Shown: one piece after another, positions 20,048-40,611 of the stretch
Layout of the letters: every line of letters begins with the position of its first letter
Numbering within the stretch: the stretch's first letter is position 1
Assembly (NCBI GenBank): GCA_902727985.1
Contig: CACVAY010000029.1
Location: forward strand, 1-41,670
Source: an uncultured Thiotrichaceae bacterium
Lineage (GTDB): Bacteria; Pseudomonadota; Gammaproteobacteria; Thiotrichales; Thiotrichaceae
DNA length: 41,670 nt
Direction: 5' to 3'
Position numbers and translations under genes: made by a program
The notes under the pieces: model-generated
What the model was told of the DNA's origin: nothing
Seen by the model: only the letters and a program-made list of their open reading frames with translations
Databases searched by the model: none

Positions 20048-20959
20048 CTAGTCTAAGACGAACTCCTGTTCAATATCAATACCTTTACAGTAGACAAAGG
20101 TTTCGCTTTGCGTATCGAAGATGGAAATGGCTTTTTTTGCACCAAAATCATCTAGTTCAGAATTAACACTCAAGATGTAGCGATCATCAAAAACATGAAA
20201 ACCAATGACAAACATATTCACAGCAGGCTCAGGAAAAAAGAATTTCTTCCCTGCCAGGGTTTCGATGTAATTTGGGCGTCCACTAAAGTCTGTCCCACCA
20301 TAGTATTTGCCATTAACCCTTTGTATCGCAGTATAACCTGCCAGGAAGCGCTTTAAACGTTTCACAAAACGTATTTCTTTGTTGTTATCCATTTCCCACA
20401 GATCAAGGACTTTTAAGCGATCACCTGTTGCAACAAGGAATTGCTTAACGTCATCTGTTGAACCTTCAGGGTAGGGTTCTAATGCATGAATATGCCGAAT
20501 ACCGGATTCATGCATGTAATGATCATTGGCTGTGCAATTGTCCTTAGTGACGACAGCAATATGTGACGAGTTATCATCGAAACCATATTCGCCGACTAAT
20601 AAGGCACCATCCATTTCAATCAAACTTTCGATGCGCGTACCAAAATAGTAATCGGGAATTTTTTCTACGGCGTATTTTCCACCATAGATTTCTGGAAGTT
20701 GTTCTGTCTTTCTGAATTCTCGTTTATAGGTTTTGCGATTGAGAGCGAAGTCTTCGAGAATATATGTGACATCTTGTGGTATCACTGCAGAGGGTTTGTA
20801 GGCTAGCTTACAATACATCCCCCAAAGTAACTCATGAGTTCGACCACGTTTTAATACCATCCAAACGGCTTTGAACAGATAAAATGGATTCTTGGTTGCT
20901 TTGAATTTGACGATGTTTTCTGAAATGGTTGGTAAAACCGTCGTGTTAGCTTCTGACAT
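20048..20959 (-). CDS. Unrecognised 303-aa protein, upstream partner of oxyR
   Basis: No family recognised. It has no signal peptide, though a helix near 26-40 (PFYLFKAVWMVLK) is mildly hydrophobic. From about residue 110 on, the sequence alternates short strands with aromatic and glycine turns (GALLVGEYGFDD, FLVATGDRLKVLDLW, YYGGTDFSGRPNY, DDRYILSVNSE), which suggests repeated beta sheets such as a propeller or a sensor-like fold. Its stop is only four bases before the oxyR start on the same strand, so it is co-transcribed with oxyR. It is the first gene of the cluster; its upstream region is the long AT-rich gap at 20960-21640. Confidence 0.6.
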   Translation of the reverse strand: MSEANTTVLPTISENIVKFKATKNPFYLFKAVWMVLKRGRTHELLWGMYCKLAYKPSAVIPQDVTYILEDFALNRKTYKREFRKTEQLPEIYGGKYAVEKIPDYYFGTRIESLIEMDGALLVGEYGFDDNSSHIAVVTKDNCTANDHYMHESGIRHIHALEPYPEGSTDDVKQFLVATGDRLKVLDLWEMDNNKEIRFVKRLKRFLAGYTAIQRVNGKYYGGTDFSGRPNYIETLAGKKFFFPEPAVNMFVIGFHVFDDRYILSVNSELDDFGAKKAISIFDTQSETFVYCKGIDIEQEFVLD

Positions 20960-21640
20960 GCTGTCTCAGTCCTGGGAGGTAATCGCATTGTATTCTAACA
21001 ATACAAGTAAATAACAGATAGTCCACCTATCCGTTTTCATCTATAAATGGTCAATCAAATGTATTTGAGGGTATTTTCGACATCCTTGTTAACGTCTAGT
21101 ATTTAACAAGGTAGATCTTTTTTTAAGTAGCAAGCAATTTTTTGTAACGAAATGTAATAAATTATGTCTATCCACAATGCTCATGGTTTTTGTTTAAAAT
21201 ACCCTTGAGGCTGAACAATAAGCAGTACTTCATTTGATAGCGCTAATAACCTGCGCACAAAGCTGAAATCCTGTGGATAACTTTGTGGATAAAAAAAGAT
21301 ATTTTTTTAGTCAATAGCCTGGCAAACAATTATTTATTTTTTGAACATTTCACTACCGAATTATATTCTATATTTATTAACAGCTTACAATGGTTATTCT
21401 GTAAGTTATTGATTTTTTCATTCAAAAAATATTAATTTCAATAAATTTATAAAAATGTTTATAACTACTAGGGGCTGGATGGTTTAGCCTAGTACTATAT
21501 CTTGTAGATAAACAGGAAATGAATAAATTATGAACACATTTATAGTTATCTATACTCATAAGTTTTTTTAATGAGTGGCTTGTTAAATAATAAAAGCTCC
21601 GCAGGGTATAGTTATTAGCAATGATTTACTGCGAGCAGGC
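20960..21640. other. 681-base AT-rich non-coding region with DnaA boxes (candidate oriC or DnaA-binding locus)
   Basis: No convincing gene in either strand. Two perfect consensus DnaA boxes, TGTGGATAA, lie in tandem 12 bases apart (21272-21280, 21284-21292). Two boxes with one mismatch are at 21168-21176 (CTATCCACA) and 21503-21511 (TGTAGATAA). A GATC followed by seven T's at 21114 matches 11 of 13 positions of the E. coli unwinding 13-mer. Long A/T-rich runs occupy 21295-21460. These are features of a bacterial replication origin, although dnaA, dnaN, gyrB and mnmG are not adjacent in this window. The promoter for the oxyR cluster must also lie here. Confidence 0.5.
21596..21636 (-). terminator. 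Probable terminator after ubiB
   Basis: On the minus strand, five bases past the ubiB stop, GCTCGCAG pairs with CTGCGGAGC (one bulge) across a 24-base loop and runs into TTTTATT. The loop is long, so strength is moderate. Confidence 0.45.
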
Positions 21641-23302
21641 TTACTTCTCCTTCCGTAAAGATGCTGCAATAAATGCCAGCCCGGCGATAATTAAGCCACT
21701 TTGAAGTAACGGATTTTGTAACAACCCTGAGCTGTGCTCAGTATTGCCAATCGATAATAATCCACCCGTGATTAACATTGCACTACCTGCAATCACGAAT
21801 TTTAGTGAATGGGGTTTCGGCTTTTTCGATTCCTTCTCAGACGCACGATGCAGGTTTTGTCGTTGTTGCTGATGCGTTTGGAGAATTACATCATTTATCA
21901 AGGTTGGCATATGTGGAAGTTGTTCGATAAACTTCGGTAAATTATTTTTGGCACCGTTAAGCAATGAGCGTGCACCGACCTGTTCATCCATCCAGCGCTG
22001 TAGAAAGGGTTTTGCCGTCGCCCACAAATCCAAGTCTGGATAGAGTTGACGACCTAGTCCTTCGATATTGAGGAGCGTTTTTTGTAGTAATACTAGCTGA
22101 GGCTGTACCTCCATATCAAAGCGACGTGCCGTTTGAAAGAGACGCAACAAAAAGAAGCCAAAGGAGATGTCTTTAATTGGGCGATTGAAGATGGGTTCGC
22201 AGACAGTACGTATGGCGGATTCAAAGTCATTAACGCGTGTATTGCTAGGAACCCAGCCCGATTCAAGATGCAGTTCTGCGACACGCTTATAATCTCGGTT
22301 GAAGAATGCATGAAGGTTTTCCGCAAGATAACGCTGGTCATCAGGAGTGAGTGTTCCAACGATGCCAAAGTCTACCGCTTTGTAATAAGGGTTAACGGGA
22401 TCAGATATTTCAACAAAAATATTGCCAGGATGCATATCGGCATGAAAAAAGTTGTGTCTGAAGACTTGTGTGAAGAAGATCTCAACGCCAAGCTCTCCCA
22501 AACGCTGCATATTAACGTTTTTGGCTTGAAGCTCTTCGATATTACCTACTGGCGTACCATAGATGCGCTCCATCACCATGACCTGCTCGTGTGTATAATC
22601 CCAGTACACTTCTGGAATATAGAGTTCGGTAGAGTTTTCGAAATTACGTCGAAGCTGACTGGCGTTCGCGGCTTCACGAATAAGATCTAACTCATCGATG
22701 ATAGTCATTTCATATTCTTCAACGACCTCAATAGGACGTAGACGTTTGGCCTCAGTCCAGTAGCGGTTTGCCATTCCCGCAATAAAAAACAGAAGCTCAA
22801 TATCCTTTTCAATGGTTTCTCGAATATTCGGCCTTACTACTTTAACAATGACTTCTTTGCCATCCCACATCTTTGCGGTATGGACTTGGGCAATTGAGGC
22901 GGATGCTAAGGGTTGGGTATCGAAGCTTTGGAAAACCTCGGTAACAGCTTTCCCAAAGGCATCCTCGATAATTTTTTGTGATTGTTCTGCGGGGAATGGC
23001 GGGACATTGTCTTGTAATTTTTTTAGCTCATCATTGATTGCAGGCGGTAATAGGTCATTTCGTGTTGAAAGCATTTGCCCGAATTTGATATAAATCGGCC
23101 CCAAATCTTCTAAGGCAAGACGAATGCGCTTGCCGATTGCTTCGCGATCATCAGGTTTCTTTTTCCAATTCCAAGGCGCTGCAAAATAGATAAAACTCAG
23201 AGGTTTGAAAATAGGAATATGCAATAGAATCTCGTCCAAACCATGTTTGATAAGAATTTGATTGATTCTAAAGAGTCGAACTAATTGGCGAGGTGTGATC
23301 AT
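21641..23302 (-). CDS. ubiB: Ubiquinone biosynthesis regulatory kinase-like protein UbiB
   Basis: UbiB is an atypical ABC1/ADCK kinase-like ATPase needed for ubiquinone synthesis, at the inner membrane. 553 residues match the family. The KxGQ motif (YIKFGQMLSTR, Lys73-Gln76), ASIAQVHTA loop, HADMHPGNIF and VDFGIVG (metal-binding Asp-Phe-Gly) are present. Two hydrophobic helices at the C-terminus (about 498-518 and 527-547) anchor it in the membrane. Its ATG overlaps the ubiJ stop by four bases (ATGA), so it is coupled to ubiJ in an ubiE-ubiJ-ubiB operon. Confidence 0.96.
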   Translation of the reverse strand: MITPRQLVRLFRINQILIKHGLDEILLHIPIFKPLSFIYFAAPWNWKKKPDDREAIGKRIRLALEDLGPIYIKFGQMLSTRNDLLPPAINDELKKLQDNVPPFPAEQSQKIIEDAFGKAVTEVFQSFDTQPLASASIAQVHTAKMWDGKEVIVKVVRPNIRETIEKDIELLFFIAGMANRYWTEAKRLRPIEVVEEYEMTIIDELDLIREAANASQLRRNFENSTELYIPEVYWDYTHEQVMVMERIYGTPVGNIEELQAKNVNMQRLGELGVEIFFTQVFRHNFFHADMHPGNIFVEISDPVNPYYKAVDFGIVGTLTPDDQRYLAENLHAFFNRDYKRVAELHLESGWVPSNTRVNDFESAIRTVCEPIFNRPIKDISFGFFLLRLFQTARRFDMEVQPQLVLLQKTLLNIEGLGRQLYPDLDLWATAKPFLQRWMDEQVGARSLLNGAKNNLPKFIEQLPHMPTLINDVILQTHQQQRQNLHRASEKESKKPKPHSLKFVIAGSAMLITGGLLSIGNTEHSSGLLQNPLLQSGLIIAGLAFIAASLRKEK

Positions 23303-39911: not shown

Positions 39912-40413
39912 GCTTTCTCCCTACTAATCATTTCATTAAGGGTAGACAATAGTTGCTTAGCCGACTGAAATAGTCGTTCCGGTTTATTCCGATTAGTACT
40001 TATTATTTTGTTTATTTTTAGAGGTATTTGTATCGCAGGCAACCATTGAATACATTATTCTAATCTGCATGGCTTAAAGCGCATCAAGCTAAGCAGATAC
40101 ATATATCTTATAACAATCATGGTTTTTTGTTGTTGTATTTATCACGAATAGGTATAGAAAATTGGTTAATTTATGTACGATTTTCCCGACTTTTTTAATA
40201 AGTATCGTTTGTTTTTTAAGCAAGCCTTAAATGTTCCTCAGATAGCATCAGGTGTGAAGTTTTATATACAGCCCCTTATTGCGCTGTGAATTAGTCCTGA
40301 GAATAAAGGATTACCCTATTTTTACATCCTGAACGTATGGATGTACCCCTAAGTAGGTCTACTACTCTGTGATTAACTACGTCATAATCCAGATCTAGCA
40401 AAGAGGAGACAAC
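39912..40413. other. 502-base non-coding gap
   Basis: Between the divergent protease and CPXCG genes. It holds one perfect seven-pair hairpin, TACATCC/GGATGTA with a nine-base loop (40323-40345), without a T-run. A 38-codon frame at 40173-40289 has no ribosome site. I see nothing else I can name. Promoters for both flanking genes must be here; a CATAAT about 30 bases before the CPXCG start could be a -10. Confidence 0.4.
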
Positions 40414-40608
40414 ATGTTAGGAACAGAAGCGGTCACCATCAATTGTCCTTATTGCGCAGAAGCGATCGAAATCGTAGTTGATTGCAGTGTAGATTATCAA
40501 GACTATATTGAAGACTGTTTTGTTTGTTGTCGTCCTATACAACTTAAAATCTCAGTCGATGCACAGGGCTATCCCTCAGTTATCGCACAAGACGAAAATC
40601 AGGGTTAG
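40414..40608 (+). CDS. CPXCG cysteine-rich zinc-binding protein
   Basis: 64 residues. Four cysteines are placed as CPYC (11-14) and CFVCC (35-39), giving the zinc knuckle of the CPXCG family. The rest is acidic. Its function is unknown; the fold suggests nucleic acid or protein binding. A strong Shine-Dalgarno (GAGGAG) is eight bases before the ATG. The tpm gene begins three bases after its stop, so the two are co-transcribed. Confidence 0.85.
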   Translation: MLGTEAVTINCPYCAEAIEIVVDCSVDYQDYIEDCFVCCRPIQLKISVDAQGYPSVIAQDENQG

Positions 40609-40611
40609 TTT

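Follow-up and report, generated by a model that had tools for sequence, protein, structure and literature searches.

A conserved candidate DnaA-control element of the datA/DARS kind, separate from the replication origin, in an uncultured Thiotrichaceae bacterium

A pair of perfect DnaA boxes in an AT-rich gap of an uncultured Thiotrichaceae genome (G000; draft assembly of 3.54 Mb in 152 contigs) is most likely not an origin but part of a self-contained switch in the DNA for tuning DnaA, the protein that starts replication. The window analysed here, the whole 41,670 nucleotides of contig CACVAY010000029.1 (C29), contains the pair within a stretch, positions 21272-21464, that on the evidence of its sequence and that of its relatives is very likely a conserved, non-origin candidate element for DnaA binding. 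This stretch probably belongs with datA and DARS of Escherichia coli in how it works, and we consider it reasonably likely to be a DnaA-control site of datA/DARS type outside the origin; we give slightly less than even weight to the narrower proposal that the C29 copy would specifically be an inactivating, datA-like form that has dispensed with box I. The composition of its sites, their spacing, their recurrence in other genomes and, from GC skew, their position away from the origin are direct observations.

The original prediction of two perfect boxes in tandem holds: both read TTATCCACA on the minus strand, at 21284-21292 (box B, the first of the double box) and 21272-21280 (box C, at +12 from B), head to tail, 12 bp from start to start and separated by a 3-bp gap, and a box scan confirmed that these are the sole perfect boxes of the window. 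When the window was shuffled 500 times with dinucleotides preserved, a perfect pair no more than 30 bp apart never arose, indicating that the tandem arrangement is unusual; boxes with at most one mismatch are not enriched, numbering 18 against 12.9 expected, a count reached in 12 of 100 shuffles. The gap itself (20960-21640; 681 bases) is AT-rich as described, with 30% G+C, although it may not be the longest non-coding stretch of the window, because 39912-40611 comprises 700 bases without an ORF of at least 80 aa (stop-to-stop frames there reach 69 aa). Similarly, a GATC with a T-run does occur at 21114, with two mismatches to the 13-mer of the E. coli unwinding element, but the window holds 37 such matches compared with 30.1 on average over 20 shuffles, and the 13-mer was accordingly given no weight. 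Two single-mismatch boxes reported close to the pair are present at 21168-21176 (plus strand) and 21503-21511 (minus strand); both were rejected as parts of the element since they lie outside the positions at which boxes recur in related loci. Searching the window against Rfam at gathering scores gave no matches, whilst between 20700 and 21900 one terminator-like hairpin was found (0.8 expected), on the minus strand at 21035-21013, between the element and the gene g303 downstream of it.

A conserved third box, A (TTATAAACA, two mismatches; 21456-21464, minus strand), was absent from the boxes originally reported and was identified by architecture searches. It lies 172 bp upstream of B, within the interval of 161-191 bp upstream of B-C and on the same strand that defines box A in related elements, and all three boxes are on the minus strand, the one-direction arrangement of datA, with A carrying two mismatches. 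Between A and B, an IHF-like site (TAAGCTGTTAATA, one mismatch; 21375-21387, minus strand) is positioned at -95 of B and +77 from A, in the place and orientation in which such sites recur, and a perfect IHF consensus (TAAGTTATTGATT on the plus strand; 21402-21414) is found at -122 of B in the orientation opposite to that of the recurrent site; both ihfA and ihfB are encoded in the genome. A Fis-like 15-mer (GGTAGTGAAATGTTC, one mismatch; 21343-21357, minus strand), of uncertain meaning, occupies its recurrent place at -65. The slot at +26 for an inverted box D, corresponding to box I of DARS (21258-21266, minus strand), is empty, the best inverted 9-mer within +21 to +59 of B in this copy having four mismatches; the same slot is filled in 40 of the 61 elements compared below. 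Upstream of A, a possible promoter block directed toward g303 (21494-21534, minus strand) comprises TTCAT at 21530-21534 and at 21519-21523, 11 bp apart, together with TATAGT at 21494-21499. We take the TTCAT repeats to be response-regulator-like, and a scan for the sigma-70 consensus did not call the block.

The element is bordered upstream by a ubiB-like gene with an ABC1 domain (21641-23302, minus strand), which is adjoined by SCP2-domain and UbiE-family genes, and downstream by g303 (20048-20959, minus strand; 303 aa), which has no match in Pfam or NCBIfam. A LysR gene and a small uncharacterized gene come after g303 in the window. We found g303 in five of 63 family genomes, including this one, all within the genus. 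The pair is kept upstream of g303 in three further genomes of the genus, G003 (twice), G004 and G005, and in G003 this is so although the gene upstream is not ubiB; the motif TTATnnACAAAGTTATCCACAG precedes g303 in G000, G004, G005 and, twice, in G003. In an alignment of five g303-upstream sequences box B lies in the best conserved block, box C is identical in all five, TTCAT at 21530-21534 is invariant and the putative promoter block is partly so, while the IHF site in its usual position, scored in four g303-type copies, has one, two, three and three mismatches, with the C29 copy alone at one or fewer. Elsewhere, TTATnnACAAAGTTATCCACAG or close forms of it are found by pntB-, glnS-, priA- and rimO/prkB-like genes in other genomes, and copies outside the g303 type align poorly except at the boxes. 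The G003 element (contig C133; L102, 4552-5260) lies upstream of g303 as a tandem duplication, its two copies 512 bp apart, and close pairs of matches, judged by coordinates, also occur in G362, G294, G198, G406 and G216 among the class-search matches listed. A double-box locus, TTATCAACAAAGTTATCCACA, lies beside one shared uncharacterized gene family in G004 and G001 (L110, L128).

The layout A-IHF-B-C, with or without D, recurs across the Gammaproteobacteria. A strict pattern, in which A and B are separated by 152-182 bases and B and C by 3 bases, matched 20 of the 63 genomes searched in the family and, in a sample of 369 Gammaproteobacteria genomes that includes three from the family, 56; the reversed pattern, used as a control, gave no matches in either set; the strict pattern was absent from 43 of the family and 313 of the class genomes, the near-complete G001 among them. 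As this pattern was built after A and its spacing were known from earlier loci, with D, IHF and Fis sites left outside it, strict-pattern searches are not blind to A, for which a search free of A provides the test. Of 39 loci found without A in the pattern, 19 carry a same-strand TTATNNACA at 160-190 bp upstream, and 20 of the 30 same-strand box matches found 20-330 bp upstream fall at 160-190 bp, which accounts for 31 of the 311 positions. Offsets from A to B among the 72 class matches listed are 175-178 bp in 41, 168-174 bp in eight and 165-167 bp in nine, the last being about one helical turn under 175-178.

DNA was read for all 28 family-search matches, 30 of the 72 class-search matches and a few further loci, giving 63 elements, or 61 after removal of two that repeat one core with a second A. 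An inverted box (two or fewer mismatches) is placed exactly at +26 from B in those 40 of the 61, with any other offset between +21 and +59 used at most once. The IHF consensus (one or no mismatch, in one orientation) occurs at -101 to -95 in 44 of 61; across the 63 elements perfect IHF sites are present in 27, compared with 2.0 expected from mononucleotide shuffles, and sites with at most one mismatch in 54, compared with 25.7. A perfect Fis consensus at -66/-65 is found in 23 of 61 elements and at any other position in two at most. Fis-like sites (one or no mismatch) are associated with the inverted box, being present in 31 of 40 elements that have it versus five of 21 that do not (Fisher p 8e-5); the IHF site does not discriminate between the two groups (29 of 40 and 15 of 21, respectively). 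With relatedness controlled for by the split between this family and all others alone, the association of D with Fis is strong outside the family (23/28 vs 0/6, p 0.0003) and not significant inside it (8/12 vs 5/15, p 0.13). A second box (two or fewer mismatches) at A+12, as in datA, occurs in none of the 61 elements. Conservation in the genus and this class-wide layout of boxes and IHF sites support the alternative that the original prediction had left open, a DnaA-regulated or titration locus.

The 56 strict-pattern loci listed are flanked by matches to the rimO query in 15 cases, priA in 12, pntB in six, g303 in four and aroE in two, some loci matching two queries; the names rimO, prkB, pntB, glnS, priA, aroE, htpG, dnaN, recF and gyrB are those that we presume for flanking genes from their sequences. 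A priA-like gene (primosome restart) stands repeatedly downstream of the element in several families (L147, L161, L173-L177, L187, L190, L192, L199, L200), and another strict-pattern locus (L194) adjoins a frame that we take to be ParB-like.

By the strict pattern this genome has three copies, on contigs C29, C84 and C102, of which one has the inverted box and two do not. The C84 copy, by rimO/prkB-like genes, has an inverted box at +26 (one mismatch) and a perfect IHF consensus, with no Fis-like site found in it although D is present; the C102 copy, by a pntB-like gene, also has a perfect IHF consensus, and its best inverted box has three mismatches. The C29 copy likewise runs against the D/Fis trend, with a Fis-like site (one mismatch) and no box D. 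In each of G003, G004 and G005, one copy carries an inverted box at +26 and one or more others do not, and the g303 copy of G004 has an inverted box at +28.

E. coli sites were read on MG1655 DNA after the class-wide layout had been found. DARS1 and DARS2 both have boxes at 0, +12 and, inverted, +26; DARS2 also carries two IHF sites of one mismatch each (-87 and -71) and, at -185, an inverted box that is perfect, and in DARS1 no IHF site was found even with one mismatch allowed. In datA, counting from TTGTAAACA at 0, TTATCCACA stands at +12 and TTATTCACA at +174, with a perfect IHF consensus between them at +77; an inverted box follows at +186. On this comparison the recurrent element joins datA-like spacing (box, IHF at +77, box at +174) to a DARS core. 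The C29 copy resembles datA in its three one-direction boxes with an IHF or IHF-like site between them, at +77 and in the same orientation in both, and in the 172 bp from TTATAAACA to B, compared with 174 bp from TTGTAAACA to TTATTCACA. However, the C29 site at +77 has one mismatch where that of datA is perfect, the perfect IHF consensus of C29 being displaced, and the datA order 7-2-IBS-3, with the pair on the A side, is replaced by A-IBS-B-C, with the pair on the B side; in datA, moreover, an inverted box follows box 3 by 12 bp. The resemblance to DARS lies in B-C, which correspond to boxes III-II at 12-bp spacing, and many related elements, as well as the C84 copy, also have the inverted box I at +26; in the C29 copy III and II of the core at 0/+12/+26 are present and slot I is empty. 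The distal box of DARS2 is inverted, whereas box A points in the same direction as B-C. Likewise, the recurrent elements have their Fis-like site between the IHF site and the core (in C29 the one-mismatch Fis site stands at -65, between the one-mismatch IHF site at -95 and the core, with the perfect IHF consensus at -122), unlike FBS2-3 of DARS2 as placed in excerpts of the DARS literature. We came across no account of the A-IHF-B-C(-D) layout in a literature search, which is weakened because the name datA also retrieves 'data'.

In E. coli, one-direction complexes such as that formed at datA promote hydrolysis of DnaA-bound ATP, and release of ADP by DARS complexes depends on boxes I and II standing head to head. 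With its boxes in one direction and no box I, the C29 copy is therefore most likely datA-like, and we propose that it would lower ATP-DnaA; the C84 copy would work like DARS. In such a mechanism DnaA would bind the double box B-C tightly, IHF would bend the AT-rich spacer and bring A-bound DnaA to B-C, and a head-to-tail DnaA oligomer would form on the one-direction boxes. Excerpts of PMC5742627 give minimal datA as boxes 7, 2 and 3 with one IHF site, its essential boxes all in one direction, and the DARS core as boxes I-III with box I opposite, and part of PMC4245941 describes the three DARS core boxes as necessary and IHF and Fis as required for DARS2. Read-through transcription lowers IHF binding at datA (PMC10950094, in excerpt), and transcripts sent from the putative promoter block through the element toward g303 could by analogy dislodge IHF and set its timing; this is speculation, given that the consensus scan did not call the block. 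Three features call for caution on the datA-like form: IHF sites are weak in g303-type copies, the boxes stand in a different order, and a Fis-like site is present.

Plain titration, in which the double box would bind DnaA strongly and lower the free protein with its nucleotide state unchanged, appears unlikely. It would account for a perfect double box with a 3-bp gap, E. coli DnaA being described in excerpts of PMC11317965 as preferring double boxes 2-3 bp apart, and for the weak IHF site of the other g303-type copies, but neither IHF nor a distal box at a constant 172-178 bp is required for it, and both recur at fixed places elsewhere. Non-origin DnaA-box clusters whose deletion affects initiation are known from B. 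subtilis; unlike the mechanism proposed for C29 these are not IHF-based, B. subtilis being an organism without IHF, datA or DARS according to part of PMC13220808. It is quite unlikely that the C29 copy is instead a DARS-type site that reactivates DnaA by ADP release even though box I is absent, possibly by way of a box that is weak or out of place. The match of B-C to DARS boxes III-II in geometry, the Fis-like site at -65 and the inverted box at +28 in the G004 g303 copy are each compatible with such activity, yet the +26 slot of C29 is empty, with four mismatches in its best inverted 9-mer, and all three core boxes are necessary in E. coli (PMC4245941, in excerpt).

Control of g303 transcription by DnaA bound at B-C, with the gap serving as promoter or leader, is decidedly improbable. 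The pair is upstream of g303 in four of the five genomes that have this gene, the putative promoter block, which lies upstream of A, is in part invariant, and double DnaA boxes at E. coli polA, purH and nrdA are named gene-regulatory sites, with two boxes 3 bp apart as in the C29 pair (polA, TTATGCACAaagTTATCCACA; PMC11317965, in excerpt). Nevertheless, the same architecture stands by unrelated genes, box C is ~310 bp from the g303 start, G001 has g303 with no such pair upstream, and sigma-70-like promoter sites between 20700 and 21900 are not above chance (three compared with 4.6 expected), the block itself not being called.

The reading of the pair as oriC was not borne out, since the change of skew and a denser box cluster are found elsewhere, near dnaA. 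In the skew check named beforehand, GC skew on contig C110 was -0.094 to the left and +0.072 to the right of ~54.8 kb, compared with 0.055 and 0.028 to the left and right of the pair within the window, where the sign does not change; the skew refutes the pair as the main origin. The sole strong dnaA match of the genome is on C110, adjoined by frames that we take to be dnaN, recF and gyrB, and a cluster of DnaA boxes, three perfect and four with a single mismatch, lies at C110:54750-54993, ~2 kb upstream of dnaA. The likely oriC of this genome is C110:54708-54993, ~2 kb from dnaA; it adjoins an htpG-like gene, and other frames stand between the cluster and dnaA. No dense box cluster near dnaA was found at 21272-21292, and no unwinding element above chance in the window. 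An oriC or a second origin at the pair, to which an AT-rich gap with DnaA boxes would be suited, consequently has negligible probability, with no skew sign change here, a 13-mer at chance level and dnaA, dnaN, recF and gyrB flanking none of the 56 strict-pattern loci listed. A second Bac_DnaA match, on C149, is in a frame that presumably resembles a ZapE-type ATPase and not Hda.

In the relatives, skew also turns from minus to plus in the near-dnaA stretches of G001, G004, G005 and G014, that of G003 being uninformative because its contig (13.8 kb) is too short and noisy, and no cluster of the required density was found in the near-dnaA stretch of G005. Pairs on other contigs of G003, G004, G005 and G014 lie where the sign of the skew is constant; the G001 pair in this comparison is close to a contig end. 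Some related pairs do lie close to dnaA, as the glnS/pntB pair of G003 is ~2.7 kb from dnaA of that genome, and the double box is not specific to non-origin loci, G130 having one inside an oriC-like 12-box cluster by a dnaN-like frame and L194 lying, as noted, by the ParB-like frame. Back-to-back arrays of many boxes at 11-12 bp spacing were also seen in G002 (C202; L126, ~1300-1430), adjoining an fmt-like gene, and in G017 (C4; L116, ~1500-1690), and are possible oriCs of those genomes.

A broader and tentative proposal, which we regard as possible rather than probable, is that a single ancient element of the Gammaproteobacteria (distal box-IHF-Fis-III-II-I) gave rise to both datA and DARS, in which joint loss of box I and Fis would turn a reactivating into an inactivating site, and that many lineages, this one included, may keep both forms as copies that balance the nucleotide state of DnaA. 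Work on datA and DARS in the cited papers, as far as their excerpts extend, centres on E. coli, with conservation of DARS noted in gammaproteobacteria related to it (PMC4245941, PMC8682772, PMC6090056, PMC4451416). A fixed-spacing scaffold common to many genomes of the class would allow DnaA-control loci to be annotated in uncultured lineages, and the presence or absence of box I and Fis would predict which loci raise and which lower ATP-DnaA. With such a shared scaffold, ideas on how the DnaA cycle evolved could be put to the test.
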